From Candidatus Cloacimonadota bacterium (lineage in GTDB: Bacteria; Cloacimonadota; Cloacimonadia; Cloacimonadales; Cloacimonadaceae): 63,567 nucleotides of DNA. A program made the position numbers and the translations under genes. The notes below the pieces were generated by a model. The model did no database searches, was not told the DNA's origin, and saw nothing but the letters and a program-made list of their open reading frames with translations. Below, piece by piece: positions 15,233 to 40,110 of the stretch (position 1 is its first letter; every line of letters begins with the position of its first letter). The DNA is taken from contig JAQWBI010000005.1 in NCBI GenBank assembly GCA_028706475.1, positions 1-63,567 of the forward strand. Direction: 5' to 3'.

Positions 15233-15262
15233 CAAAAAAAGGCCTCGTACAATAACGAGGCC
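15233..15262 (-). terminator. Terminator of the TPR-ExbB-ExbD-TonB operon
   Basis: GGCCTCGT (15241-15248) pairs perfectly with ACGAGGCC (15255-15262). Read on the - strand the stem is followed by seven Ts. It lies 30 bases after the TonB/AgmX-like gene. Confidence 0.85.
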
Positions 15263-15292: not shown

Positions 15293-16702
15293 TTATCCTG
15301 CTCTTACGCGGAACTGGTATGCTTCTTCCTGGCTTACATTGAATCTCCAGCTGTTTACGATGGATTTTACACGTGCCACAAAGGATTCTGGATAAGCTCC
15401 TGCAGGAACCACCATTGATTCTCTAACCGTACCATTGGCGTTTATAAACAGGGTGATGGTAAAGCTTACGCTTTGGCGTAATTGAGCTTCGCGATAGGCT
15501 TGGTCAATCTGAGCCTTACGAGCTTCCACCTGATCACGCAGATTTGTAACGCGGGCTATTCCGGCTTCATCCAATCCGGTTACACTACCTTCTTTGAGGG
15601 TCTGAATGCCTCTGCGTTTGTAATCTGCAGCAATTCTTTGCTGTTCCACAATGTCGCCCCAAGCTTTGCCGCTGGGAGCAAGAGCGCTGGCATCACCAAC
15701 GATGTGCGTGCCTGCAACACCAGCAGGACGTTCGGAATGTCCGGCAGTTGCCGGTCCGCGGGTCACAACGGATCCTACGTCACCGAAATTCGGAGTGCTG
15801 GTTGCGCTGAAAGAGGATCCTGCTCCGGTTCCGGCTCCGCCGAAAGCTCCGCTGCCACCACCGGTACCACCTCCACCTCCACCTCCGCCGGGACGACGGG
15901 CAGAAAAGCCTTCCTGTACTGTGACGATTTTAAGAGTAGGTGCTACACCGGTTGCACTTGCATCGAATCCGCCGGCAAAAGCAGCATCCAGGGCAGAAGA
16001 GCCGTAGGCTCCGGGTACGCCTTGTTGGGCAGTTTGGCCGGTCTCAGCTTCTCCAGTCTCTTCCGGAGGAGTCTCTTGTGCGAAGCTTTGAGTCATAGGA
16101 GTGAGATCTGCTTCAACCCGCTGAGCTTCGCTCTTGATGTTTTCAAGGCGTTGTGCCACGGTTTCTTCTTCCATCACATAGTCAGGTTTCAGGGCAAGAT
16201 CAAACAGGATAGCAAACACAACGGCAAGCAAGATTATCATCCACATCATCATCCGGTTGAAGCGGGTAGTAGAGTCAGGTTTTGCTCTGCGAGCATATTG
16301 TGCTACAATTTGTTTTTCTTCAGCAGTAAGCACAGCCACCCATGGTTCGCGGTATTCGAAATGGACGTCCCAATCTGGAGCAAGAGTAACAGTACCTTTC
16401 AGGTCTTTCTTCAAAACCAATTGGTTTCCTGAAAGCAGTTTGTTCTGTTTCAGATAGTTACCGTCCAAGACATTGCCGTCTTTCTCAATGGTCAATTGAG
16501 ATCCGGGTAGCACTTGCATTACGTATTCGCCGCCTTGTTGTTTTACAAAGAGGTGTTTATCCGGAAAAGAAGGGGCTAATATCTGCCATTGCAGGAATTT
16601 GTTTGAGCCAATTGTGAAGCTTCTTTTGATTTCTCTGCCTTCTTTGGCGTAATCCAGAAACTTCCCTTTATAGTTCAATCTAAGACTTAGTATTTTAGCC
16701 AT
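15293..16702 (-). CDS. TonB/AgmX-like energy-transducing protein with folded cytoplasmic N-domain
   Basis: A 469-residue single-span protein. Residues 1 to about 115 look like a compact beta-rich, possibly FHA-like, domain (SFTIGSNKFLQWQI, LLSGNQLVLKK) on the cytoplasmic side. Residues 151-171 form one transmembrane helix after a basic stretch. Then come an acidic helix, a Gly-rich flexible stretch (about 270-300, with eight consecutive Gly) and a C-terminal domain (about 385-469; VSFTITLFINANGTV, IVNSWRFNVSQEEAYQFRV) like the TonB/AgmX-PglI C-terminal fold. TonB-type proteins carry proton-driven motion from ExbB/ExbD to the outer envelope. GGGGAGG precedes the ATG. It is the last gene of its operon, eleven bases after an ExbD-like gene. 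The partner and cargo are unknown. Confidence 0.8.
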   Translation of the reverse strand: MAKILSLRLNYKGKFLDYAKEGREIKRSFTIGSNKFLQWQILAPSFPDKHLFVKQQGGEYVMQVLPGSQLTIEKDGNVLDGNYLKQNKLLSGNQLVLKKDLKGTVTLAPDWDVHFEYREPWVAVLTAEEKQIVAQYARRAKPDSTTRFNRMMMWMIILLAVVFAILFDLALKPDYVMEEETVAQRLENIKSEAQRVEADLTPMTQSFAQETPPEETGEAETGQTAQQGVPGAYGSSALDAAFAGGFDASATGVAPTLKIVTVQEGFSARRPGGGGGGGGTGGGSGAFGGAGTGAGSSFSATSTPNFGDVGSVVTRGPATAGHSERPAGVAGTHIVGDASALAPSGKAWGDIVEQQRIAADYKRRGIQTLKEGSVTGLDEAGIARVTNLRDQVEARKAQIDQAYREAQLRQSVSFTITLFINANGTVRESMVVPAGAYPESFVARVKSIVNSWRFNVSQEEAYQFRVRAG

Positions 16703-16713
16703 ACTACCTCCCC

Positions 16714-17247
16714 TTACATTCTAGAGGCAGTTCGGTATGATTGTAACCAATCTGCTTCTTCCAAAGTTGCGAAATAAATGTTTGCGTAACCCACTGAGGT
16801 GCCAACACTCACTATCTGAGTTACATATCCACAAGGCAGATCTGCATCGGCCTGAACTATTAGACAGGCATCACCAAGTTTGTCTTCCGGGATCACACTG
16901 ATCTCAGTTTTGAAGAAATCCTGCATGACTTGGCGAACTTCAGCACTTTCCACCATTTCCTGGGGAGTCCCAAGATATTGGCTGCCAATACCCAGTAGTA
17001 CTCTGTCCATGTACAATTTGACAGGAGTCACCATGGCGTTTTCCATCAGTTTCTCTTTGGTGATGGAGGTGGGATACTTCATATCCGGTAACTGGTTAAT
17101 CTTCACTGCATCCATCGACACGTTTTTGATGAGAAAAACCAGGATGATAGTTAATGCGTCAAGAAGAGAAGTGATCGACAAGCTCTTTACGTCTTCTACT
17201 TTACGACGTACTTGTCTGGTTCCCTTACGACTACGATTCGAAATCAT
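16714..17247 (-). CDS. ExbD/TolR-like proton-channel subunit (with conserved Asp)
   Basis: A 177-residue protein with a short basic N-terminus, one transmembrane helix (about 24-42) and a periplasmic domain, as in ExbD/TolR. The helix contains SITSLLDALTIILVFL with Asp30 at the position of the proton-relay Asp of ExbD (Asp25 in E. coli ExbD). The periplasmic part ends with the family's QIVSVGTSVGYANIYFAT-like strand-helix unit. With the ExbB-like protein encoded two genes upstream it should form the energised motor. The preceding ExbD-like gene ends 17 bases upstream. Confidence 0.88.
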   Translation of the reverse strand: MISNRSRKGTRQVRRKVEDVKSLSITSLLDALTIILVFLIKNVSMDAVKINQLPDMKYPTSITKEKLMENAMVTPVKLYMDRVLLGIGSQYLGTPQEMVESAEVRQVMQDFFKTEISVIPEDKLGDACLIVQADADLPCGYVTQIVSVGTSVGYANIYFATLEEADWLQSYRTASRM

Positions 17248-17264
17248 AATATCCTCCCCCAGCC

Positions 17265-17813
17265 TTAATAAATGTATGTAGTTTTGGGGTTACGATAATG
17301 TACTGTTACAAAACCGTTATCTTTGCAGAGGTCAATGGTGCGGATCAGGGTGTCATACAGAACATCAGGATGTACGATTACGGCAATCTCAGTAGTATCA
17401 GAATACTTTTCTTTCAGATCCACCAGCAAGGTGTTCAATCCGTCAAAATCGTAAACATCTTCTCTAAGCCACGGTATTTTGTGAATGGTTTTTTTGTCCG
17501 GTTCTCGTATTTCCATTCCAGGGAACAGTTGGGCCTGTGCATGTTCCTTCATCATCAGATGAATTTCGACGATTTCCGCTTGAGCACCGCCACCTTCTCC
17601 AGTTCCGCCACCACCTCCGTCTGAGGTAAAACTAAGCGCAATCAGAGCTACCTGTGAGATCGAAATCATCATGATCAAAAAAGGTATGATCGAGACGAAA
17701 AGATTCATAATAGGAATCAAGTTTGGTTCCTCAGGTGCAGTCTGACTGTTTTGCTGCCTTGCCTCAGAAGGGCGATATACCTTTCTCGCCCCTGAAGGAT
17801 TTAGTCCTGCCAT
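17265..17813 (-). CDS. Second ExbD/TolR-like subunit, relay Asp replaced by Asn
   Basis: A 182-residue ExbD-like protein with a longer N-terminal cytoplasmic tail, one transmembrane helix (about 32-55; LIPIMNLFVSIIPFLIMM), a Gly-rich turn and a periplasmic domain of the ExbD type (DVLYDTLIRTIDLCKDNGF). Aligning the PxxD segment of ExbD with PIMN here puts Asn37 where the proton-carrying Asp normally is. The subunit may be structural, pairing with the Asp-containing ExbD encoded next. It follows the ExbB-like gene by four bases. Confidence 0.85.
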   Translation of the reverse strand: MAGLNPSGARKVYRPSEARQQNSQTAPEEPNLIPIMNLFVSIIPFLIMMISISQVALIALSFTSDGGGGGTGEGGGAQAEIVEIHLMMKEHAQAQLFPGMEIREPDKKTIHKIPWLREDVYDFDGLNTLLVDLKEKYSDTTEIAVIVHPDVLYDTLIRTIDLCKDNGFVTVHYRNPKTTYIY

Positions 17814-17817
17814 GATC

Positions 17818-18591
17818 TTATTCCTTGATCTGGTTGTTAATGTGGTTCACCAATTTCACACTGTATTCGTCGATATCGCTAATCAAATTCTGAGCGCGGG
17901 TGTAGAGACCACCTTTGATCAGAGTAAGCGGAATAGCACCCATTAGACCGAGAGCAGTAGTTCCGATAGCCATATAGATACCTTCGGTAAGAGCGTTCTG
18001 AGCTGCAACACCGGTTAAGAAACGCAAAGAGTTGAAAGCTTGGATGAGGCCAAAGATGGTTCCCAGAAGTCCAAGGTAGGTGGAGATTTGGGCCAGAGTA
18101 TCAAACCAGAATAATCCGCCATCCAGTAGGTGTACTTTCTGCAACACAGCTTCATCAAATGCGTTTTGAACAGCGATGCGGGCTTCTTCGCCCTTCTTGC
18201 CGGTTTTACGCACATCTTTGAAAACAGACAATCCACTCCAGAAAATGAAGCCCATTGTGGTGCCCTTGAATTGGTCAGCAATCTTTGTTGCTTCGTCAAT
18301 TTGATCGTTTTTCACGAAGTTCTTCAGTTTGAAGAAGAATTTCTCGGCATCAATCTTCTCTCGTACATACAGTTTAACGTAGCGCATGACCGCCAAAGTC
18401 AAACCAATCAGTAAATTGATCAGGATGAGGTGAGCCCAAAATCCGCTGGTGCTGTAAACTTCAATCAGGTTTACGCCGCTACCGGATGCTGCTGCGGTTT
18501 CGGGTACTGCTTCGGTAGCTTCCTGTGCAAAGAGGAAACCAACACTCAATAACAGGGCAATTACAACGAGTATGTTAAGCTTGCTTTTCAT
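17818..18591 (-). CDS. MotA/TolQ/ExbB-family proton-channel protein
   Basis: A 257-residue ExbB/TolQ homologue with a cleavable-looking signal peptide (LNILVVIALLLSVGFLFAQ), a first membrane helix (about 49-68), a cytoplasmic region with a basic stretch, and two further helices. These include the hallmark ISTYLGLLGTIFGLIQAF and AIGTTALGLMGAIPLTL segments. ExbB pentamers around ExbD dimers use the proton gradient to move TonB-type proteins. A signal peptide on ExbB is seen in several non-enteric lineages. The ATG overlaps the stop of the small upstream gene (ATGA). Confidence 0.92.
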   Translation of the reverse strand: MKSKLNILVVIALLLSVGFLFAQEATEAVPETAAASGSGVNLIEVYSTSGFWAHLILINLLIGLTLAVMRYVKLYVREKIDAEKFFFKLKNFVKNDQIDEATKIADQFKGTTMGFIFWSGLSVFKDVRKTGKKGEEARIAVQNAFDEAVLQKVHLLDGGLFWFDTLAQISTYLGLLGTIFGLIQAFNSLRFLTGVAAQNALTEGIYMAIGTTALGLMGAIPLTLIKGGLYTRAQNLISDIDEYSVKLVNHINNQIKE

Positions 18592-18881
18592 TTTGACTCC
18601 TTAAGCCATTTATTTAGTAGTATTTCACTGTTCTCTTGAACGATTCTGTCGTCTATTACAAAACGGTACTTACCGGTTGCTTGGAAAGTGTCGGACTTTG
18701 ACTTGTAGATACCGGATACCGGTGCCATGGCTTCAACTCGAATTTCAATGACTTCTGTATCAACCAATATCCCTTCTGCATTGCGGATGGGACCGGTCGT
18801 GGGTTGAGGATTCGCCTGTTGTGCCAGTAGCACTCCTGCCAGGAGGCTAAGCACAATTACCATCAACAGGTGTTTCTTCAT
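18588..18881 (-). CDS. Small exported protein of unknown function in the ExbB operon
   Basis: A 97-residue protein with a clear signal peptide (MKKHLLMVIVLSLLAGVLLA, cleavage near Gln21) and a mature part of about 75 residues with alternating beta-type segments (VIEIRVEAMAPV, GKYRFVIDD). I do not recognise the family. It has an excellent AAGGAGG ribosome site and overlaps both neighbours by ATGA: the 1,944-residue TPR gene before it and exbB after it. It is therefore almost certainly made in concert with them and may be a periplasmic accessory of the motor. Confidence 0.75.
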   Translation of the reverse strand: MKKHLLMVIVLSLLAGVLLAQQANPQPTTGPIRNAEGILVDTEVIEIRVEAMAPVSGIYKSKSDTFQATGKYRFVIDDRIVQENSEILLNKWLKESK

Positions 18882-21800
18882 CGGATTTCCTCCTTTCCTG
18901 CTTGTGAATATGTGATCTTTGCCAAAAAGCCCCGGTAAACCGAGCTATTGGATACCTCGAAACGTAACACATTTCGACCATTTACTACGTGACTTGCGTT
19001 TATGAGGACCTCGCCTTTGTATATCTCGAGGGGGTCCGGATCGTAATCGAAAATTGCACTACCAATCTCTGATCCGTTCAGATATACTGTCACGGCTTCA
19101 GGAGCAATAAATTCTATGATACCTTCTTTGAATTCCGAATCCAGCATAAAATCTGTTTCAAACACCAGATCGTTTACCGGACCTTCAAGTTCGGAAACCC
19201 AAATTGGGCGGGCTGCATTTGGTTCCATGTTTACCAGATTGTCCCAGGTTATATTCCATTCTGAGGCATCTGCCGCATAACTGGAGCTTTCTTCGCCAGT
19301 ATCCGGATCGCTGGTGATTATTCTCCATCCGGAGTTTGTGAAGATGTTTTTCACTACAGGTGGGATGTTTTCCCGGATTCGTTGCAGACTGGTCATGGTC
19401 TGCAAGGCAAGGGCAGCTTGTTGTTCATCGGCGCTGCTGTTTTCCAAGGACAGTTCAAACACATTGCTACCGCGGGCAAACATCTCTCCGGGAATAATGA
19501 AGCTATAGAGCGTGCTGGCGGGTTTGCCTGCTTCCAGAGTGTCTATTACCACCCAGGAAGAATTTACCACACTTCCATTCAGCTTTACTTGGATACCCAA
19601 GGGGAATGATATGTGCAGATAGGCGAAGTTTGGTTCCAGATCCATATTGAAACTGCGTGTCACATTCAAAGTGTTGTTTGAAGGAATTGTGGTGCGTCCA
19701 AGGCTTTGCCCCTTCGGACTCTGGATTCTGCTGAAATTAACAGTAGTTGCGGCTGGATCCAGATTCTGTTGCCATTGGTTGTCCAGCACGTAATCCTGAC
19801 TGCGGTATTCAACACTCTGATTGTATTTCAAGAGGGCGTCTTTAGCTGCTTGTGTGATTGCATTTTGGTAGCCTGCCAGATGGAATTGAGTATATATCTG
19901 GTTGTTGTAGGTAAGTGAGTTTATGATGTACTCTTGAATATTTTGCATCTTGAAACCTTGGATTTGTGCTTCTGCATTTTCACCCCATTGTTCGCGGTAA
20001 TATCTGCCCTGGGTGGTGATGCGGAAGAAGGTCTCTATCTGGGTGCCCACTACCTCTGCACCACGGTCATAGATTCTTGCGATCAAAGCAAGCGCCTTGA
20101 TCTGACGATCGTTGTCCATGTCGATCTCACTCTCCGCAGTTTGGCGAATAAGGGTTCTAACCTTGTTCACTTCTGCTTCGATAGTGCTCATATACTTCTT
20201 GATGCGATTGTCGCCGCCACCAAGGTTACTATCCCAGGTTGTAATAGCAACCACTCTGATTTGTTGAGCGGGACTCTGAGTAAAGATGGAGGATCTTCCC
20301 AAGGCCTCAAGGCGTGAATCATAGTTTGCCAGGAAGGCTTTGCGTTCTTGGATCTTGTCGTATTCACGTTGAACGGCAGCGAATATCTCGTGGATGTCTT
20401 CCGGGAAACTGAGACCTTCTTTCTTGTATGCGTTCTCCAGGCTGCGGTAACGATCGCGAGCAGCAAAGGCACCTTCAAAATCCTGATTCAGGTATGCAGC
20501 GTCGAATTCCTGGGCAATGGTTCGCAATTCCGTAGTGGCTACGTCCATATAATATGAGTTTTTGCTGGGGTCTTTGGCATATATCGCCTTGGCCATTCGC
20601 TTGTAATCTTCGTTTTCTTTTCGATCATAATAACCCTTGGCCATGTATTCCATATAAGGTACTGTGTCTGAGTGATTGGGATAGGTCTCGATAAAGCGAT
20701 TCATCAAGGCATAACCGGTCGGGATGTTTCCTTCCAGGTTGTAAAGGCGAATAGCGTCTGCCAATAGGCTGCTTTCGGGCACATCTTCGGTGTCAATACT
20801 TCCGGCATGTGCTTCTTCGTAAAGAGCTAAATAAGCTTCGGCAGCTTCGGTTCTGCGGGATGCATTTTCTGCTTTTGCGGAAATGGCGGCAAGGCGTAGG
20901 AAGAAGGCGTAACTGCTGCCGGGATGAGCATCTATAAACTCCTGTTCCAAGCTCGCTGCCAGGGTGGGATTGTTCATCATGGTCTCAGATTCGGCAATGT
21001 CTATGGCTTGGCTGTAGCGAGTGTAGATGGCGTCCAACTCTGTATCCGAGGCGGCCAGCTCCATCAAGAGGTCGATGGCTTGCTGATATGCACCGGCTTT
21101 CTTGAAGGCTTCCACGGCTTCGTTCTTCTGCCCCAGGATCTCCAATCTGCGGCTGGGATCCATCTCTGCTGCCAGTCTCAGGCGTTCATTGGCTTCAGTA
21201 AGAAAATCACCGGAGCCAGAGGCAGTCTCGAAGCTGTTTTGAATTTGAACCAAAATATCCTGGTTGATATTGGCTCTGTCTTCATCACTCTCAGCCAGCG
21301 GTAGAGCTTTGCGGAACCAGCTTTCAGCATCTGCAAAACGTTCCTGGCGAATACTCATTTCGGCAAGTTTCAGGTAGGTGTCACGTTTGTCGGAGTCCGT
21401 CGTCAAATCTTCGTATTCCAAGGCTTGCTGGTATAGAGCAATGGCGTCAGGATACTTTTCACGGCCAAATTGAATGTCTCCCAAGAGCAGGATAACATCC
21501 AGAGCGTTCGTCATTCTTTCGGGAGTTTTGAAGCGATCCTGATTGCTAACCTTCAAATATCTGTCCGCGCAGTTCTTCAAAACTGCAAAAGCTTCGTCTT
21601 CATTTGCCGGAGCACCTTCCTCTACAGTATATTCATTGCTTGCCATCAAATCCATAGTTGTGGCATAAGCATTGCGGGCATATATCATAGCCAATTCTTC
21701 ATTTTCGTAGAATTGGCTGTTTTGAGGATGCTTATCGTTATAATCATAGAGCTTCTTTATGGCTGAATTGATGTCATGAATATCCTGAGTACGATCCGCC

Positions 21801-24712
21801 AGCACAGAATATGCTGTTACAATCAGACTATCTGATGATGCACTGTCGGCTTCATAATCGGGATTGTGCAATTGAGCGAATTCCTTGTAAACACGCAAAT
21901 GGTTTTCGTAAGCAGTGAGGTTCTCGCGGTTAATTGAATTCACGAAGTTATTGTACAATCTGAAACCGCGTTGAGTGTAAGCATTATCTACTATGCTCAT
22001 TTGGCGGCTGATGTCTTTATCTTTATTTTGGCTGTACCATTGAGAATCATGGCTGTAGTTGTTGATGATTTTTTGATAGATGTTCTGAGTAATCTGATCC
22101 AGGTCTTCGCCTTCACGCAGATTCTGGCCGGAGTTGTGGTACAGGAAGAGGATAGAGTCCTGCAGGACGGGGTTTATCAGTGCCATTGGTGCAGTATCGA
22201 TCCTGAACTGTAAGAAGTCTATCGCTTGCAGTGAAGCGTTCATGTTCAGTTTCAGTTGAGTAGAACGATCCAAAACTTTTTGAACTATTTGCTCGTTGCT
22301 ATAACCGTCAAAAACGCGCTGCAATTCGGCAATACCCCGCGAGAGCGAGCTGAAATCAGTTCCGTCCAGAGCGATCAGGCAGTAGGCGATGTTGTCCACG
22401 GCATCAGAACAGTAGTCTGCGGCAAGCTGCTTATCGGTGATCAAACCGGATTCGGAAGCTTTCAACAATTCCATAAAGTCGTTCATAGCCATACGCAGGT
22501 CTTGCTCGGCAAAGCTATTGAGGCGTACCCATCCTCTTTGATATAGGGCATCGTAGTAGAGAGGGCTCTTGGAGTTTGCTACGATCTGATCGAAGTATCC
22601 GATGGCTCTGTCGCGATAGAGCTCGGGATTATCAGAGTCGGTGGAAAAACTGAAATTGAGCAAGCCTAGGCGATATACGGATTCCTCATAGACTTTGGAA
22701 TCCGGGAAATCTCGGACAATCTCTTGTAAAGCAGCTAGAGCTTCGCTGAAATTGGCTTCACTATACAGCGAATTGGCTGGTGCAACATCATCAAATCCAG
22801 CGGTATTACGGAAGGTGATCTTGTTGTTGCTTACTTCCATACGTTTCAATTCGCTGGTAATAAAAGCGATATTGTATAAGGCTAAATCCCGGTTCGGCAG
22901 ATTGGGATCCAACTCCAGGGCCTTGCGATAACTGACCAATGCGGGATTCAGATCCTCGGGAATGGCGTAGTACTGCAACTCTGCTAAATAGTAATAAAGA
23001 TCGGCAGTACCTACTAATTGATTGCCACCGGGCTGGTCAATCGAACTAAAATCAGGATTGTTTGCCAGGAAAGTATTGATCTCGCCGATCAGTTTCAGCT
23101 GTTCGGAGCGCCAATATGCTTTGTGTTCTTCCTGTTCTTCCTCAGTAAGATAGATCTGAGCTTCCAGGTACTTCTGGTAAACCGCCATCAAGCTGCGGTA
23201 AGACATCTGCAGGGTGATGAAATCCATTGCAGTAAGAGTCTCATCCCAGCCTTCATTATAAACCGCATCCCGTTGTGTAGATAAAGCTACGTCACTGATC
23301 TGGGAGGCGATCATGGGGCGGATACTGTTGCGGAAATCCTCATCATACATAGTATTGGAGAGGCTTAATACATAGTTTTCATAATCAGTGGCAGTGTCAT
23401 CCAACTGCTTCTTTTCCGCTAATAGAGCATAGTATTCATCCAGGATTTCCAACAGGGCTTCACCTTCCTGAGCATCCAGGTTGTGTACATCACTCACATA
23501 TTTCTGATGTAATACTTCAGCTTCAGCTTTACTTCTCATGGCCTCATTTCTTTCCATCATGAGGCGATCGTGGCTTTCCGGGAACTCTCCGCTGGCTAAT
23601 AGCTCGTCGATCTCTTTGATTATCTCATCGTAGGATGTAATTATCATCTGGATTTGGAATATGCGATCCAGATACAAATCGCCGGTATAAACTTCGGTAT
23701 CTGAGGTCGCTTCGGTGCTAAGCTTCAGGAAGTTCTGCGATAACACCAGGTCAAACTGTTTTAATACCCGATCATAGAAAGCCAGACTTTGCTTTGAAGC
23801 TTCAATGTACTTCATGGCGGGTATAAGAAATTCTTCAGAACCGATGGAGGCATTGGCATAATCTGTCATCAAGTGCTTTAACTCATCCAAACCGCTCATT
23901 TCTATGTCATAGTTTTCAATAATGGTATCCAGGAAGAGAATTCCTTCCATGCCGATTATTTCGTTGTAGATGGCTGTAATATCCAATTTGATCTGATCAA
24001 TCTGCCCTGACAAGTCTTTTAATGCTGCTTTGCTGGGTGATTGATAAAACGTGTCTATGTCCAATGAGTTTAAACGGTTCAGAACGTTCTGTTTTAGCGG
24101 CAGAAGCGCGTTCAAGACGATCTCCCGGTTTCCGTTGTAGCGCATTATAAGATTTGATACGTCATCAAAATGTTTACTATCTGTGCCTAGATCCGAGTAG
24201 AGATAAAGATAAGCAGGGAAATACTGCTCTGTATTGTAGTTATCAAAAACGATGGCGCTCAAATAGTCTCTGGCTGTCTGACGCTCTCCGGCTTGCAGGA
24301 GTTCGGTCAGTTTGCGGTACAACACAATATTGAGCATTTTGCGTGCACCATAATTCAGATCTGTCTTCAGGAGTGAGTCGAATATGGAAATAGCTCTGTC
24401 ATTCTCACCTGCTCTGGCATACATATGCCCCAAAAGATACAAGACATCGTTGTCACCCAGCAAGCTTAATGTACTGCTGAATTCTTGTAACTCTGCATTT
24501 GCTTGCGCAGGGTTCAATTCAATGACACTCGGAAGCGCGTCAACCAAGAATTCTTTGGCGACTTTTCGCAATTCCTGCCTCTGAATGCGGATTTCTTCTT
24601 GTAGCTGCTCAACAGTCACATTCTCGTCGTACTCAATGGTCTGGGCAGATAAATAAGAAAAGCAAGTCAACCCAAACATAAGGAGCAAAAACACAATAAA
24701 ATTCTTTTTCAT
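18878..24712 (-). CDS. Giant exported TPR-repeat protein with C-terminal jelly-roll domains
   Basis: A 1,944-residue exported protein. After a signal peptide (NFIVFLLLMFGLTCFSYLSAQ) most of the chain is helical and carries many tetratricopeptide-type repeats (for example LYLLGHMYARAGENDRAISIF near the start, YLKLAEMSIRQERFADAESWF in the middle), suited to holding partner proteins in the periplasm. From about 1690 there are two jelly-roll-like beta domains (LHISFPLGIQVKLNGSVV; VTVYLNGSEIGSAIF ... NGRNVLRFEVSN), of the type that binds sugars or packs against other domains. The ATG at 24712 starts the signal peptide. A GTG four codons upstream is possible. It heads the ExbB/ExbD/TonB operon, so it is probably the machine's scaffold. 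The function is unknown. Confidence 0.85.
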   Translation of the reverse strand: MKKNFIVFLLLMFGLTCFSYLSAQTIEYDENVTVEQLQEEIRIQRQELRKVAKEFLVDALPSVIELNPAQANAELQEFSSTLSLLGDNDVLYLLGHMYARAGENDRAISIFDSLLKTDLNYGARKMLNIVLYRKLTELLQAGERQTARDYLSAIVFDNYNTEQYFPAYLYLYSDLGTDSKHFDDVSNLIMRYNGNREIVLNALLPLKQNVLNRLNSLDIDTFYQSPSKAALKDLSGQIDQIKLDITAIYNEIIGMEGILFLDTIIENYDIEMSGLDELKHLMTDYANASIGSEEFLIPAMKYIEASKQSLAFYDRVLKQFDLVLSQNFLKLSTEATSDTEVYTGDLYLDRIFQIQMIITSYDEIIKEIDELLASGEFPESHDRLMMERNEAMRSKAEAEVLHQKYVSDVHNLDAQEGEALLEILDEYYALLAEKKQLDDTATDYENYVLSLSNTMYDEDFRNSIRPMIASQISDVALSTQRDAVYNEGWDETLTAMDFITLQMSYRSLMAVYQKYLEAQIYLTEEEQEEHKAYWRSEQLKLIGEINTFLANNPDFSSIDQPGGNQLVGTADLYYYLAELQYYAIPEDLNPALVSYRKALELDPNLPNRDLALYNIAFITSELKRMEVSNNKITFRNTAGFDDVAPANSLYSEANFSEALAALQEIVRDFPDSKVYEESVYRLGLLNFSFSTDSDNPELYRDRAIGYFDQIVANSKSPLYYDALYQRGWVRLNSFAEQDLRMAMNDFMELLKASESGLITDKQLAADYCSDAVDNIAYCLIALDGTDFSSLSRGIAELQRVFDGYSNEQIVQKVLDRSTQLKLNMNASLQAIDFLQFRIDTAPMALINPVLQDSILFLYHNSGQNLREGEDLDQITQNIYQKIINNYSHDSQWYSQNKDKDISRQMSIVDNAYTQRGFRLYNNFVNSINRENLTAYENHLRVYKEFAQLHNPDYEADSASSDSLIVTAYSVLADRTQDIHDINSAIKKLYDYNDKHPQNSQFYENEELAMIYARNAYATTMDLMASNEYTVEEGAPANEDEAFAVLKNCADRYLKVSNQDRFKTPERMTNALDVILLLGDIQFGREKYPDAIALYQQALEYEDLTTDSDKRDTYLKLAEMSIRQERFADAESWFRKALPLAESDEDRANINQDILVQIQNSFETASGSGDFLTEANERLRLAAEMDPSRRLEILGQKNEAVEAFKKAGAYQQAIDLLMELAASDTELDAIYTRYSQAIDIAESETMMNNPTLAASLEQEFIDAHPGSSYAFFLRLAAISAKAENASRRTEAAEAYLALYEEAHAGSIDTEDVPESSLLADAIRLYNLEGNIPTGYALMNRFIETYPNHSDTVPYMEYMAKGYYDRKENEDYKRMAKAIYAKDPSKNSYYMDVATTELRTIAQEFDAAYLNQDFEGAFAARDRYRSLENAYKKEGLSFPEDIHEIFAAVQREYDKIQERKAFLANYDSRLEALGRSSIFTQSPAQQIRVVAITTWDSNLGGGDNRIKKYMSTIEAEVNKVRTLIRQTAESEIDMDNDRQIKALALIARIYDRGAEVVGTQIETFFRITTQGRYYREQWGENAEAQIQGFKMQNIQEYIINSLTYNNQIYTQFHLAGYQNAITQAAKDALLKYNQSVEYRSQDYVLDNQWQQNLDPAATTVNFSRIQSPKGQSLGRTTIPSNNTLNVTRSFNMDLEPNFAYLHISFPLGIQVKLNGSVVNSSWVVIDTLEAGKPASTLYSFIIPGEMFARGSNVFELSLENSSADEQQAALALQTMTSLQRIRENIPPVVKNIFTNSGWRIITSDPDTGEESSSYAADASEWNITWDNLVNMEPNAARPIWVSELEGPVNDLVFETDFMLDSEFKEGIIEFIAPEAVTVYLNGSEIGSAIFDYDPDPLEIYKGEVLINASHVVNGRNVLRFEVSNSSVYRGFLAKITYSQAGKEEIR

Positions 24713-24756: not shown

Positions 24757-24792
24757 TAAAAGCACGCCAGGATACAGCTTGCACCCTGGCGT
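24757..24792 (-). terminator. Terminator of the outer-membrane barrel gene
   Basis: ACGCCAGG (24764-24771) pairs with CCTGGCGT (24785-24792). On the - strand the stem is followed by GCTTTTATT. It separates the barrel gene from the TPR operon, although the T run is short enough that read-through is possible. Confidence 0.6.
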
Positions 24793-24851
24793 ACTGCTTC
24801 AACATAGGAAAGTATGAATCCTACGTTCCACCGCTATGTTATATGTATGCT

Positions 24852-26036
24852 TTAATCCCGTTCAGCTTTCAGCTCTTGAATCCAAGAACGAAGATCATCA
24901 AGAGACTTCTGGGCTTTCTCGCGTTCAGCACGCAACTGCTTCAACTCTTCCAGCAGATCCCGAACTTCGGGAGAGAGCTGAGAATAGGATGTGCTTCCGC
25001 CACTACCGGTAAGACCAGGTGTCTCCAGAGTGGTTCCGGAGCTGGATGTACCCAGAGCTACTTCTCCAGTGCCAGTTTTGGGTTTGGTCTCTTGCGGAGG
25101 AATGATAACTACTTCGCGATCTGTGGGATCAGTGGTTGTACCAGTCGGAGGAATAATGATACCTTCCTGAGGAGGCAGAGTACCAGAATCCACAAGGTAG
25201 GGTTCTTCCAGATCGCTATCCACGGCATAACGCTTCAGATCAGGACGACGCTGTGCTTCGGCATATTTGTCGAAGAGGTAAGAGAGAGCAAATGCAATTC
25301 TCAGGTTGTCTTCGTAACCATTGTCCTTAGTGAGGTCTTCCAGAGCTTGTGCTCCAACCTTGACGCCCCAGTTCTTCCAGCTGTATTTGACGCCAGCGTT
25401 GAATTCATGACCGTCGAATTCACCTTGCAGGGCAAGGTTTCTGATCGGAGACAATTCAGCAGACATAAACAGACCATTGAACCTACGGGCACGTCCTGCT
25501 TGACCTACGAAACGGTTTGAACCGATCCCGAGGTTGAACATCCATGGGATACCGAAAAGTACTGCCTGCTTTGATGCAACTGCATAAGGCGAATAGTTCT
25601 CGTATCCTGCTTTGTCCGGGTGAGTATAGAAGTCATCACCAGGAACCATGTCCTGAACTCTGTGATTAGTCATCGGAGACAGGATATTGTCCATACCTAC
25701 AGAAATCTGCGGAATACGCGGAGTCTCCTGCAGTACCTTAAATTTTAAATTCAAAAAATATACCAAGGGTTCATCTTCAACTTTGTCGCCCACGAACAAA
25801 CCTAGTTCCAAGCGGTTAAAGAGACCTACTCCGGCCATCATGTAGGGGACAAAGCCGTCGTATTCCACAGGCATTGCAATGTCACGATAATAACCGGCCA
25901 ACATAAACTCTGCTGCCTTATGTGGTAATACATAGGCATCCGGAGTACGCAACATGCCAAGCGTCTGAAAAGGCGCTGCCTGCAAGAGGCCAAACATCGT
26001 CGCGATAACGATTACACTCAATATAACTTTTTTCAT
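24852..26036 (-). CDS. Predicted outer-membrane beta-barrel protein with C-terminal coiled coil
   Basis: A 394-residue exported protein. After a signal peptide (VILSVIVIATMFGLLQAAP) it has about 230 residues of amphipathic strands typical of a small barrel, with glycine-rich turns (YMMAGVGLFNRLELGLFVGDKV, FNAGVKYSWKNWGVKVGAQAL). The opening (LGMLRTPDAYVLP) resembles YjbH-type barrels. Residues about 285-345 are a Pro/Thr/Gly-rich linker, and the last 45 residues form a coiled coil (EVRDLLEELKQLRAEREKAQKSL). The ATG at 26036 follows GGAGGG. It lies immediately upstream of the TPR-ExbB-TonB operon and is a candidate outer-membrane partner. That link is inferred from position only. Confidence 0.7.
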   Translation of the reverse strand: MKKVILSVIVIATMFGLLQAAPFQTLGMLRTPDAYVLPHKAAEFMLAGYYRDIAMPVEYDGFVPYMMAGVGLFNRLELGLFVGDKVEDEPLVYFLNLKFKVLQETPRIPQISVGMDNILSPMTNHRVQDMVPGDDFYTHPDKAGYENYSPYAVASKQAVLFGIPWMFNLGIGSNRFVGQAGRARRFNGLFMSAELSPIRNLALQGEFDGHEFNAGVKYSWKNWGVKVGAQALEDLTKDNGYEDNLRIAFALSYLFDKYAEAQRRPDLKRYAVDSDLEEPYLVDSGTLPPQEGIIIPPTGTTTDPTDREVVIIPPQETKPKTGTGEVALGTSSSGTTLETPGLTGSGGSTSYSQLSPEVRDLLEELKQLRAEREKAQKSLDDLRSWIQELKAERD

Positions 26037-26122
26037 ACTTCCCTCCACCTTTCGGTGATTAGTCTATTCATGTATCCTTCAATATCATTGACAATTTATA
26101 CGTCAAGCTTTTTCTTGAGTCC

Positions 26123-26525: not shown

Positions 26526-27872
26526 TTAGTTTCTCAGGAGACTGGTATCGAAGTCTTCGCCAAGAAATCTCAGCCAATCCGGATTGGATACTTCCATATC
26601 ATCTCCGGAAACATATATCAGGCGGTAGTTGTTGTTCATTTGAATATCTATGAATACGTAAACGGCACGGTTTCCGCTGGAGTACTTCCAGATCTGGTAA
26701 TCCTTGCGGACAAAGCGGCTTTCATCCGAGCTGGTACCTTTTTCGATGTCTGAAGGGGCTCCGTTGCGAATATAGATTCTGCCCATATCGGAGGTCCAAC
26801 CGGGTTTGAGGGATGAGTAGTATGTATTTGCATGGTCCACGCGTTCATGCACCAGATCGATGACATTCTGTTCGCTCATTCCGGTGCTAGTGGCCATGGT
26901 CTTCCAAAAGTTCGTAATGTGTCTGCGCTTTGCCTCCTCGTTCATGGCATCCCAGTTTGAAGGCAATTTGCTGGCCATAAAATAGCGCATCAGTCCATAT
27001 TCATCCTCGGTATCGGGGAAGAGGCTCAGCATCAATTCCACTTCCTCGGAGATCACAAAGTCGAAGCTTCGGCTGATTGTGGATTCTCCAGCTTGCAAGC
27101 TGATAGTACCCTCATATATCCCGGCTTTTAGGTCTTCCAGCGGGATCTTCAGGCTAATCCCTTCACTGGGATTGTGGGGAACAATATCCATATACTCATC
27201 CATCACCAGCTCGTCTTTATGCTCTAAACTTAATATCAATAGTTGTGCCATTCCCATTTCTTCTTCTGGAGTATATATCTCAAAATAGATGTGAGCGTTA
27301 TCGTGGTATTCCCGGTTTAGAATTATTGATGGCAGGGATTCGAAGACTTTGCCATTGCGCCGAAACTTCTGCAGAAAGGAGCTGCTATCGGCATATACCC
27401 GGCTGTTTAGTTCCACATCGCTGATGCGGGTATCGGTGGGTAGAGCGTCGATTTCAAAGCTGTAGATGAAGCTTTTGTTGCTGTTTACGTCCACAGCCTT
27501 GAAACTGAGGGTATAACTATGCGGATCCAGCATGAAGCTCATGCGGTTCAGATACGATTTTTGTGTGGATAGTGCGTCGTGTTTGCTGCTGATGCCGATA
27601 TTGTCGGTAATACTCTGAGTATAGACCACTGAGTCCTGGTTTGATATCTGTACTTCCACATCCACTTCAGCAAAATAGGCGTTATTCTTTGCTATAAATA
27701 TCAGGGAGCGGTAGGGGATTTGATAATCGAGTAGCAGAACAGTGTTCTTATCCGTACCGAGAAAACGACTATAATCAATATGCATGTGCAAGCGTTCTTG
27801 TGCTGCGACTCCCATGCATAGCAGCAGTATCGTCAGGCATAGCGAGATTCTTTTAATTATCGATGTACTCAT
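26526..27872 (-). CDS. GWxTD-domain exported protein (first of a tandem pair)
   Basis: A 448-residue exported protein with a signal peptide (ISLCLTILLLCMGVAAQ), a beta-rich middle region and, near residue 357, the GWxTD-domain core (KPGWTSDMGRIYIRNGAPS). It ends with a WxYSSGNRAVYVFID-type strand. GWxTD-domain proteins occur mainly in the FCB group and Acidobacteria and have no established function. It overlaps the end of the adjacent GWxTD gene by 20 bases. The two share the plan signal - beta region - GWxTD and look like an ancient duplication. Expression is presumably coupled to dnaE upstream. Confidence 0.82.
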   Translation of the reverse strand: MSTSIIKRISLCLTILLLCMGVAAQERLHMHIDYSRFLGTDKNTVLLLDYQIPYRSLIFIAKNNAYFAEVDVEVQISNQDSVVYTQSITDNIGISSKHDALSTQKSYLNRMSFMLDPHSYTLSFKAVDVNSNKSFIYSFEIDALPTDTRISDVELNSRVYADSSSFLQKFRRNGKVFESLPSIILNREYHDNAHIYFEIYTPEEEMGMAQLLILSLEHKDELVMDEYMDIVPHNPSEGISLKIPLEDLKAGIYEGTISLQAGESTISRSFDFVISEEVELMLSLFPDTEDEYGLMRYFMASKLPSNWDAMNEEAKRRHITNFWKTMATSTGMSEQNVIDLVHERVDHANTYYSSLKPGWTSDMGRIYIRNGAPSDIEKGTSSDESRFVRKDYQIWKYSSGNRAVYVFIDIQMNNNYRLIYVSGDDMEVSNPDWLRFLGEDFDTSLLRN

Positions 27873-28974
27873 CTTCTTTATTCCTCAATGTGTATTGCCC
27901 GAAACCACGCTCATCAACAAAGACGAAACTGCGGTTCAGGTGAAAATAATGCCAGGTTATACTGGGTGGTCGTCCGATCGGGAATGTGTCACTGGCAATC
28001 TGGTCTGGTTGTCCATACTTGATAAAAATCCTTCCCCGGTCGGATTTCCAGCCTTGCATGCGTTTATGAATGCTAAATTGTTCATCGGCTTGCAGCACAC
28101 GCTGATAAAAGAACTCTCGGTTCTCATTGCGCAGAGTACCGGGGGTGGGGTCGTTGGCTTGCCAGAAGCTCTCAATTGCTTCTGAGCGTTTATTGGCTGC
28201 AACTCTGCGCAGGGTTTGCCATTGGTTTTGATTTGCCACATAGCGCAGTTGAGCGATCTGGTCTTTCAGAGAATAACGGAGATTGAAGGAAAACCATGGT
28301 TTATACAGCAAAGGTTCCAATTGATAACGGATGTTCATCTCATCCACTGATATCTGCAGATTCTGAATGCTATCTTTTTCAGTGATGCTCTTCAGATCCA
28401 GCTCAAAGGGGCTGATTGGATTCTCATAGACATGTTCTTCTCCATCCAGATCCAAACGCAATTGACTGGCGCCGACCGCGAAACTATGTCTCAAGGTCAG
28501 GCTATCCAGACTTTTCACACTCATGTTATCCGGGAGATAGGAGAAGTCCTCTCGCTTGGCGATCAAGTAGGCCTGACCCAATTCGGTGGCTTGGCTGCCA
28601 ACGCTGAAATTACGGCTGAAGCTTTGTTTATCTCCCAATTTACGATTCCTCAAGCTTACGTTTAACTGATGATTTCCCGTTGTCAGATTATAACTCTTGT
28701 AGAAAGGGATGGCGGTGCCTATCAGCCAATCTCGTCTGGGAATCTGCAAGCGGGATTCATCCACTGCTACTTGTTTTCCGCGGGAATTTGTGATCTGAGT
28801 GGATACCTGATACTCGGAGTAATCGGCATCTTTGGCAAAGATGAAAATATCGTATGGGAAGAGTATCCAGATATCCACTCCGCTCGCGTAGTTTTCTATC
28901 ATTATTTCCTGACCAAATACAGGCAGGCATGACATGGACAGTATTGCCAGGCTAAGCAGGATTCTGCGAAACAC
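27853..28974 (-). CDS. GWxTD-domain exported protein (second of the pair, next to dnaE)
   Basis: A 373-residue exported protein. It has a signal peptide (ILLSLAILSMSCLPVFGQ), a beta-rich central region and a C-terminal GWxTD-like domain near residue 307 (QGWKSDRGRIFIKYGQPDQI), where Lys-Ser replaces the x-T of the name motif. It starts inside the last 23 bases of dnaE and its end overlaps the next GWxTD gene, so the three appear to be one transcript. The function is unknown. An in-frame fusion with dnaE is excluded because the frames differ. Confidence 0.8.
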   Translation of the reverse strand: MFRRILLSLAILSMSCLPVFGQEIMIENYASGVDIWILFPYDIFIFAKDADYSEYQVSTQITNSRGKQVAVDESRLQIPRRDWLIGTAIPFYKSYNLTTGNHQLNVSLRNRKLGDKQSFSRNFSVGSQATELGQAYLIAKREDFSYLPDNMSVKSLDSLTLRHSFAVGASQLRLDLDGEEHVYENPISPFELDLKSITEKDSIQNLQISVDEMNIRYQLEPLLYKPWFSFNLRYSLKDQIAQLRYVANQNQWQTLRRVAANKRSEAIESFWQANDPTPGTLRNENREFFYQRVLQADEQFSIHKRMQGWKSDRGRIFIKYGQPDQIASDTFPIGRPPSITWHYFHLNRSFVFVDERGFGQYTLRNKEDEYIDN

Positions 28975-34012: not shown

Positions 34013-36004
34013 TTATTTTATCAATAGTAGCTTGTGCTTGGATATCTTGTCTCCGCTCTTCATCCTTAGGTAATATACTCCGCTGGCGCAGCTCCTACCT
34101 TTATCATCTTTTGTATCCCAAGCAAATTCATTGAGTCCGCCTGCACATATCCCATTGCTGAGATTGCGCACTTTCTGCCCCTTGCTGTTATACACATCCA
34201 GCTTCACATGAGCGCTTTTATCCAGTTCAAAGTTGATCCGGGTCTGTCCCGAGAAGGGATTGGGATAATTTGTTAGTTTGGGTACTGCAGTAATCAGTTC
34301 GTCCTCAACTGCGATGTAGGTGAGATTAGCCAGTAAAGTGCGGCTTTCCAGATACACTTCATCGGGGTTGTAGTAAACCGCTCCCACTTTGATCTCATAA
34401 TAGGTAATGGGATTCATCCCGCTCAGGTTATAGTTGCGACTGTCTCCCGGAATTTCAATGATGTTCCATTGCGAAGCCGGTTGTCCGTACTCTTTCCATG
34501 CTACTTCAAAGTGATGGGGATTGGTCATGGAAAACCAGTTCAATACAAAGGTATCCGGGGCCTGATTTTGGATGGCTTTCAGATAAGGGATTGAGGTGAG
34601 ATCACCTTCTGGATCTACATAGAAATCATTATCAATGAAGGATTCTATCGCTTGAGACTGAGTCTTCAGATCATCCAGGGAGTCTCCTACAAATTGAATC
34701 ACATAGAAAGTGATGGATTCATGAGGTTCCAGAGAGAGACGATACAGGTAGTTACCCTCGTTATCTGTTTCATCGTATTCAACCATCCCCGGTTGAGCCC
34801 CATACAAGGTGTTCAGCACTCTGGTATCGTTGGGACTGGGCTGCTCATACTCGTCCACGTTAGGATTTTCCGGTCGCAGGGGAGTATATTTCGATGGATC
34901 GGGATTTCTGCCGGTCGCCAGCCAATACTTCTGATTTGCTGTTATAGTATATGGGATGTAGTTCAGGGGATTATAATCATCCGGTCCGTCACCTACCCGC
35001 CAGTACCATGCGTGATTCTTCGAGAAGGGCAGATTTGGTATATAGACTTTGGATGCTATATAATACGGTATCTGCCCGAAGCCTGTATTGGCATCCCTAC
35101 TATAGGCAAATTCATAGCCCTCACCTTTCACAAATCCGCTTTTATCATCTGAGGCAATTACAATGCTCCCGGAAGCCGGGCCCATATCTGCATCAAAGTA
35201 GTGAGAGATGGCCAAGTCTTCGATCTTGGCTTCTGCGTTGGTATTGTATATCACATGCTTCTGAACCAAGTACTTATAATAATCCTGAACGGGCCAGCTA
35301 TATGTTTCCTGATGTACTGCCAGACCCAGGGGATAATGGGTGTTTACGCTAGAAGAGGAACCATAATCCCGATCACCTTCAGTGCCAAAGGGACAATAGT
35401 CGTAGAAATAAGCGCTGTGAGTAATGAAGCCTGGAGTTTCGAATGAGCCTTCCTGGGCTATGGAAAAACAGAAGGTCTCGCTATTGAAGGGATCGAAGGG
35501 GATCGGAGCGGGAACTCCCATAAGGCTTTCCAATACTCTATCATTCTCATAATAGTACGCGGCATTCGGTAGTATGGAAGGTAATTCATACTCATTCAAG
35601 GGATTGTATGCCGGTAGTAGTTCATGAAGATCATCATCACCATCCACTCCTATGGAACTAAGTGTGTCTTGAACTGCGACCAGATCTGGATTCCAGAGCT
35701 CATGCCCCTCGTACACCAAATCATTGGCATCCTGAGGTGGATAGTGTAGCCAATACAATTGGCGGCCCAGATCATCTTTGCGGTATCTCTTGCCCGAGAT
35801 CCAGATGCCGGATTGATACAATAGGCGATAATCCTGTAGATAGTTCAAAGAGGATATTATGCCATAATTGCTTAAAGTGAAGTCAAAAATTCCGTTGTCC
35901 ACATAATAATCATTCATCATTCGATCCGGGTTTCTCTCTTCAAGGGGCAAAGCCCATGCAGCGATAGCCAGCAACATCAGGGTAATCAACATTAGACGTT
36001 TCAT
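34013..36004 (-). CDS. Secreted protein with FN3-like region and FlgD-like sorting domain
   Basis: A 663-residue exported protein. It has a signal peptide (LMLITLMLLAIAAWA), a long region rich in Tyr/Asp/Asn/Pro with no recognised catalytic motif, an FN3-like segment (about 490-580; QAPDTFVLNWFSMTNPHHFEVAWKE..., ending at the YYEIKVGAVYY strand) and the C-terminal sorting domain (YPNPFSGQTRINFEL, VYNSKGQKVRNL, CASGVYYLRMKSGDKISKHKLLLIK). Such domains mark type IX-like export to the cell surface. It overlaps the preceding lipoprotein gene by ATGA, so the two are probably made together. The substrate or ligand is unknown. Confidence 0.78.
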   Translation of the reverse strand: MKRLMLITLMLLAIAAWALPLEERNPDRMMNDYYVDNGIFDFTLSNYGIISSLNYLQDYRLLYQSGIWISGKRYRKDDLGRQLYWLHYPPQDANDLVYEGHELWNPDLVAVQDTLSSIGVDGDDDLHELLPAYNPLNEYELPSILPNAAYYYENDRVLESLMGVPAPIPFDPFNSETFCFSIAQEGSFETPGFITHSAYFYDYCPFGTEGDRDYGSSSSVNTHYPLGLAVHQETYSWPVQDYYKYLVQKHVIYNTNAEAKIEDLAISHYFDADMGPASGSIVIASDDKSGFVKGEGYEFAYSRDANTGFGQIPYYIASKVYIPNLPFSKNHAWYWRVGDGPDDYNPLNYIPYTITANQKYWLATGRNPDPSKYTPLRPENPNVDEYEQPSPNDTRVLNTLYGAQPGMVEYDETDNEGNYLYRLSLEPHESITFYVIQFVGDSLDDLKTQSQAIESFIDNDFYVDPEGDLTSIPYLKAIQNQAPDTFVLNWFSMTNPHHFEVAWKEYGQPASQWNIIEIPGDSRNYNLSGMNPITYYEIKVGAVYYNPDEVYLESRTLLANLTYIAVEDELITAVPKLTNYPNPFSGQTRINFELDKSAHVKLDVYNSKGQKVRNLSNGICAGGLNEFAWDTKDDKGRSCASGVYYLRMKSGDKISKHKLLLIK

Positions 36005-39948: not shown

Positions 39949-40056
39949 AACCAGCTAACGTATATCGATATGATATGGAAATATATCCAATTGATTATCA
40001 CGAATGGCTTGGCCTTGTTATCGATACCACCGAGGGGTTCAAAAAAACGCCCTAGC

Positions 40057-40072
40057 TGGAATGTAAATTGCA
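40057..40072 (+). promoter_or_regulatory. Probable sigma-54-type promoter of the M28 peptidase gene
   Basis: CTGGAATGTAAATTGCA keeps the GG (40058-40059), the ten-base spacing and the GC (40070-40071), with TGG at -24 and TTGCA at -12. The CA of the -24 box is replaced by AA. The gene starts 39 bases downstream. Confidence 0.45.
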
Positions 40073-40110
40073 ACAATTTTAGTTTAGCAAATCTTCAAAA
40101 GGAAGAGCAA

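Follow-up and report, generated by a model that had tools for sequence, protein, structure and literature searches.

Organization of the operon

The window, meaning the whole 63,567-nucleotide stretch of DNA that was analysed, comes from a Candidatus Cloacimonadota genome of 2.06 Mb that is 97% complete (96.8%). Six co-directional genes occupy positions 15293–24712 of the minus strand, flanked on both sides by terminators. Their products are an exported TPR protein of 1,944 aa, a second exported protein of 97 aa, an ExbB, a pair of ExbDs and an FHA-TM-TonB-like protein. The features of the region are, in the direction of transcription:

24852..26048, minus strand: 398-aa exported outer-membrane-type protein with a weak YjbH resemblance and a C-terminal coiled coil
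24761..24795, minus strand: intrinsic terminator-like hairpin of 16 pairs that separates the operon from the upstream gene
18878..24712, minus strand: giant exported TPR protein, 1,944 aa, with its ATG at 24712
18588..18881, minus strand: 97-aa exported small protein, its position conserved throughout the phylum
17818..18591, minus strand: motor subunit of the ExbB/TolQ/AglR type that begins with a signal-like segment
17265..17813, minus strand: ExbD1, an ExbD-like axle subunit in which Asn takes the place of the membrane Asp (PIMNLF)
16714..17247, minus strand: ExbD2, an ExbD-like axle subunit in which the membrane Asp is kept (SLLDAL)
15293..16702, minus strand: GltG-like putative force transducer, 469 aa
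15241..15262, minus strand: intrinsic terminator-like hairpin at the operon end, 8 pairs (6 G-C) followed by a T run

The original prediction had described a six-gene minus-strand set closed by a terminator, and all six ORFs were found, with a strong terminator-like stem at 15262–15241. The short gaps and ATGA overlaps were also confirmed: the TPR gene overlaps the 97-aa gene (18881/18878), which in turn overlaps exbB (18591/18588), and the remaining intergenic gaps from exbB onward are 4, 17 and 11 nt. Pfam searches matched the ExbB with an E-value of 1e-19, the two ExbDs with 2e-7 and 3e-6, and TPR_2 with 3e-11.

Conservation within the phylum

The phylum set comprised 125 genomes from 50 genera. 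Of the 125, 87 have the TPR protein, 81 have ExbD1 and 79 have both (Fisher p 3e-21, a statistic that ignores the kinship of the genomes). In 75 of these 79 genomes the two genes lie less than 4 kb apart on one strand, and in the other four they are on different contigs. This linkage is far above chance, and the association of the TPR and small genes with the motor genes, which the original prediction had set as a test, holds across the phylum. Nearly all of the 40 fetched regions exhibit, where the sequence allows, the same gene order of outer-membrane-type gene, TPR, small gene, ExbB, ExbD1, ExbD2 and TonB-like gene, and priA often follows next after the TonB-like gene. A literature search on Cloacimonadota with ExbB found no paper.

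Four genomes of two genera (G082, G087–G089) contain the TPR protein without ExbD1. The loci of two of them (L036 and L039, from G082 and G089) retain the outer-membrane-type gene, two TPR genes and the small gene but have lost ExbB, the two ExbDs and the TonB-like gene, in whose place stands an exported protein of approximately 255 aa. A second TPR locus in genome G092 also has no motor beside the TPR gene.

Related loci in other phyla

A scan of 84,980 named species genomes identified 80 loci, a sample shaped by the ExbB proteins of these operons with which the scan was seeded. ExbB is accompanied by ExbD1 in 79 of the 80 and by ExbD2 as well in 78, and an ORF of 60–160 aa lies beside ExbB in 77. 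A TPR protein of more than 700 aa is encoded within 2.5 kb upstream in 63 of the 64 loci with room for it, and a TonB-profile match is next in line in 61 of the 75 with room. Most of the 80 loci, which come from Gammaproteobacteria, Desulfuromonadales, Myxococcota and KSB1, share the arrangement TPR, small exported protein, ExbB, ExbD, ExbD and TonB-like protein. The KSB1 locus L141 encodes an outer-membrane protein, TPR proteins of 457 and 972 aa, a 122-aa small protein, ExbB, ExbD1, ExbD2 and a 457-aa TonB-like protein, an order that is the unfused form of the set in the window.

The original prediction knew of no described system with exactly such a composition. One was reported by Luciano et al. 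in 2011 as the Group B core complex, consisting of the TPR proteins GltD, GltE and GltC, the FHA-TonB protein GltG, and AglR, AglQ and AglS (PMC3169522), and the same order is found in dozens of named genomes. In Gammaproteobacteria, a betaproteobacterium, Fibrobacter and Geobacter, the Group B genes and one further gene make up a single cluster; the further gene is absent from Myxococcales, and the function of the complex outside the myxobacteria is not known (PMC3169522). PglI of Myxococcus xanthus is GltG, combines FHA with TonB and is bound by AglR, and AglRQS forms a channel driven by the PMF (PMC3169522). Wartel et al. in 2013 noted that many Gammaproteobacteria have the core system by itself and suggested the core as a basal transport machinery (PMC3858216).

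The Cloacimonadota operon most likely belongs to the Agl/Glt core-complex kind, with orthology to the named Glt and Agl proteins resting on architecture and gene order. Like the core complex, it unites in one cluster a TPR gene, AglR/AglQ/AglS-like motor genes, a gene for a GltG-like protein of probable FHA-TM-TonB architecture and a small extra gene, in the order observed in the gammaproteobacterial and Desulfuromonadales loci. It differs in having a fused 1,944-aa TPR protein with an extra beta-rich C-terminus, in being without the third gene of approximately 210 aa, and in a small gene that is not demonstrably homologous. It shares with the M. xanthus AglRQS-Glt gliding machine an ExbB with two ExbDs, a probable FHA/TonB transducer and TPR proteins, with no sign of the Group A additions or of gliding. 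The range of the core complex would thereby grow by KSB1 and by one entire phylum more, its gene order being unchanged in both.

A core-complex-like cluster is also located on the mobilizable Vibrio alginolyticus plasmid pMBL96 (L061:2106-9292), near transposases. This cluster resembles the operon in encoding an outer-membrane barrel, a large exported protein, small exported proteins, ExbB, an Asp-less ExbD, an Asp-bearing ExbD and a TonB-like protein; it differs in its mobilizable setting and in its TonB-like protein, which is short and without a cytoplasmic domain.

One alternative is that the operon encodes the phylum's type IX secretion (T9SS) motor, in place of GldL/GldM. SprA_N was detected in 108 of the 125 genomes and in 71/71 good genomes, and two proteins of the window (34013–36004 and 39970–42969), one of them an M28 peptidase, have T9SS sorting domains (Por_Secre_tail). 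Neither GldL nor GldM gave a match over the cut-off in the 125 genomes, although this absence rests on searches without a positive control. SprA occurs without an ExbD1-type motor in 20 of the 71 good genomes, SprA and the operon are not linked, and core-complex relatives are plentiful in Gammaproteobacteria, so that a T9SS role is unlikely. The phylum nevertheless has a T9SS translocon with no recognisable GldLM.

TPR protein, small exported protein and outer-membrane-type protein

The 1,944-aa protein has a hydrophobic N-terminus and many Pfam TPR matches. Residues 1 to approximately 567 correspond to a separate gene of approximately 670 aa in other families of the phylum, which lies just upstream and was matched at 13 loci (E to 3e-20), and the TPR gene that occupies this position in a KSB1 genome, of 457 aa, matches the same residues (6e-10). 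Since residues 1–567 match separate upstream genes elsewhere, the giant protein appears to be a lineage-specific fusion of two TPR genes; less simply, the other forms would be splits. Residues ~567–1570 constitute the widely conserved TPR part, with profile matches to the TPR gene of the named core loci of E to 1e-38. Outside the family of the source genome the large TPR protein is mostly 1,300–1,750 aa in length. No GltE-like third gene (~210 aa) was found at the operon.

The last ~300 residues are beta-rich in a low-confidence single-sequence model (pLDDT 48) and gave no Pfam domain match. Jelly-roll folds had been proposed for both ends of this protein; such a fold could apply at most to the C-terminus, given this weak model, and not to the N-terminal end.

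The position of the 97-aa gene matches that of a small exported gene beside ExbB in the named core-complex loci, and an hhalign comparison of its product with the small gene of other phyla identified the signal peptide as the only common part (hhalign 39%). In many Gammaproteobacteria (L064–L142), the small exported protein upstream of ExbB has a conserved motif of the type GNEEAPKSLYIVPWK.

The gene at 24852–26048, though behind a terminator, is conserved as a neighbour within the phylum and is probably part of the system; its product has a weak relative in KSB1. The order of genes in the Vibrio plasmid cluster and in KSB1 suggests this protein as the candidate outer-membrane partner of the machine.

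ExbB and the two ExbD-like proteins

ExbB shows no variation at the Thr residues of the proton path. In the ExbB tree, the core-complex ExbBs, including those of this phylum, form one side of a 100/95 branch, and across it lie TolQ, the ExbB of E. coli, the source genome's two ExbB paralogs and the larger ExbBs encoded in three other gammaproteobacterial clusters. The motor genes share common descent with those of the other core complexes.

The membrane Asp of E. coli ExbD and TolR sits in PFID/PLLD. At this site ExbD1 is without the proton-carrying Asp and carries Asn or Ser in 115/115 sequences: within the phylum the motif is PIMN, with Asn in all 36 loci read, and the 79 named loci have Asn in 73 and Ser in 6 (L107 and L025 both have Asn). 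ExbD2 keeps the Asp in 118/118 (36 phylum loci and 82 named loci), as do the source genome's three other ExbDs. Across phyla, all ExbD1 proteins fall into one clade and all ExbD2 proteins into another (98/87), and therefore the split and the loss of the Asp are old. This conserved pairing of one ExbD with the Asp and one without it is newly described here; a literature search on ExbD without the conserved aspartate found no paper.

By gene order (aglR-Q-S), ExbD1 occupies the place of AglQ. The Asn at its site is the residue introduced by the D28N substitution in AglQ of Myxococcus, which abolished proton conductance and paralysed the machine (PMC3858216). Cloacimonadota ExbD1 has Asn whereas AglQ needs Asp28, and the motor is not identical to AglRQS because AglQ and AglS are both reported to carry the Asp (PMC9389320). 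The same review left undecided whether those two form homodimers or heterodimers, and the asymmetry described here speaks to whether AglRQS-type ExbDs pair with themselves or with each other.

On the simplest reading of these sequences, ExbD1 and ExbD2 would pair obligately as a heterodimeric axle that has a single proton site. The axle may alternatively be an ExbD2 homodimer, with ExbD1 elsewhere. If the heterodimer is adopted for the whole core-complex family, its members would be a class of 5:2-type motors in which the axle is always an ExbD1-ExbD2 pair and a single Asp carries protons, and this natural half-site design would have become fixed before the family spread across phyla; the chances that this broader proposal is right or wrong seem to us evenly balanced. 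Were it true, each turn of the ExbD pair would comprise one proton-driven step and not two, or else the Asp-less strand would passively anchor or grip the transducer. A heterodimeric axle would also mean that two-site models of 5:2 motors must admit a one-site version.

GltG-like transducer

The last gene of the operon encodes a protein composed of an FHA-like domain (1–120), a membrane helix (~144–166), a Gly-rich disordered linker and a TonB/AgmX-PglI-like C-terminal domain (~380–469). The AgmX/PglI C-terminal model of NCBIfam (NF033768) was matched by 15 of 18 TonB-like relatives, the best at 1.6e-7. An AF2 model built from five sequences is weak overall (pLDDT 49). Its folded C-terminal part resembles TonB/TolA C-terminal folds (Z ~7), and residues 1–120 of this low-confidence model resemble FHA folds (Z up to 5.8). 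The N-terminal domain is therefore a probable FHA fold as modelled, with the FHA domain detected by Pfam in no member of the family. The original prediction had named this product only as a TonB/AgmX-like protein and had overlooked the FHA-like N-terminal domain.

Transducers of KSB1, Myxococcota, HyVt-473 and BMS3Bbin03 appear to have the same N-terminal domain, while the long-form transducers of gamma- and deltaproteobacteria have a different region ahead of the membrane helix. A tblastn search of plasmids with the TonB-like protein gave no match, and a PDB profile search with its alignment returned chance Gly-rich matches and weak TonB matches, with nothing else.

With an ExbB, ExbDs and a TonB-like tip all in the operon, the set could be a Ton system that energises nutrient uptake via TonB-dependent receptors. 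A similar cluster in Fibrobacter (FSU_2396–2403) is upregulated on cellulose and has been interpreted as a cellodextrin Ton system (PMC6851124); to us it looks like a cluster of the core-complex kind. As originally predicted, no TonB-dependent receptor is encoded at the operon, and the genome's three receptors are located elsewhere. A separate canonical ExbB-ExbD-ExbD-TonB operon, in which both ExbDs have the Asp, lies beside a receptor on contig 2 (L018:3879-9243), and a Ton system has no need of a giant TPR protein, an FHA domain or an Asp-less ExbD. We regard a Ton function as very improbable.

The set could also be a divergent Tol-Pal system that keeps the outer membrane stable during division and in which the TPR protein stands in for CpoB, as the ExbB scores best against TolQ among the named families and a TPR stretch weakly matches YbgF/CpoB. 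The OmpA/Pal domain (PF00691) gave no match in the 96.8% complete genome, in which the controls matched; TolQ falls outside the core-complex ExbB clade; and the transducer is GltG-like with an FHA-like domain, not TolA-like. The absent PF00691 and the position of TolQ rule against a Tol-Pal variant, which we judge to be highly unlikely. Of the two machines originally named as nearest, the Agl/Glt type is upheld by the ExbB clade and gene order, while the Tol-like alternative falls with the missing OmpA/Pal domain. ExbBD-TonB and TolQR-TolA-Pal share with this operon the motor and transducer folds, but their ExbDs are of a single, Asp-bearing type, they lack a giant TPR protein and an FHA domain, and they require receptors or Pal.

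Proposed function

The product of the operon is probably a machine of the Agl/Glt core-complex kind that transduces force across the envelope. The AglR-like ExbB, presumably a pentamer, would surround the ExbD1-ExbD2 axle, presumably a heterodimer, and protons would drive the motor through the single Asp of ExbD2. The membrane helix of the GltG-like protein would hold it to the motor, with the FHA-like domain sensing or binding a cytoplasmic partner and the Gly-rich linker and TonB-like tip reaching across the periplasm. There the TPR and small exported proteins may constitute a relay to an outer-membrane protein, probably the product of 24852–26048, so that proton-driven cycles would pull on or move the outer-membrane component. 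The stoichiometry, the pulling and the outer-membrane partner are parts of the machine that we infer.

Just upstream of the outer-membrane-type gene lies an adjacent pair of genes (26526–27872 and 27853–28974) encoding GWxTD-domain proteins. A literature search on GWxTD found no paper. Many genomes of the phylum keep the nearer of the two as a neighbour.
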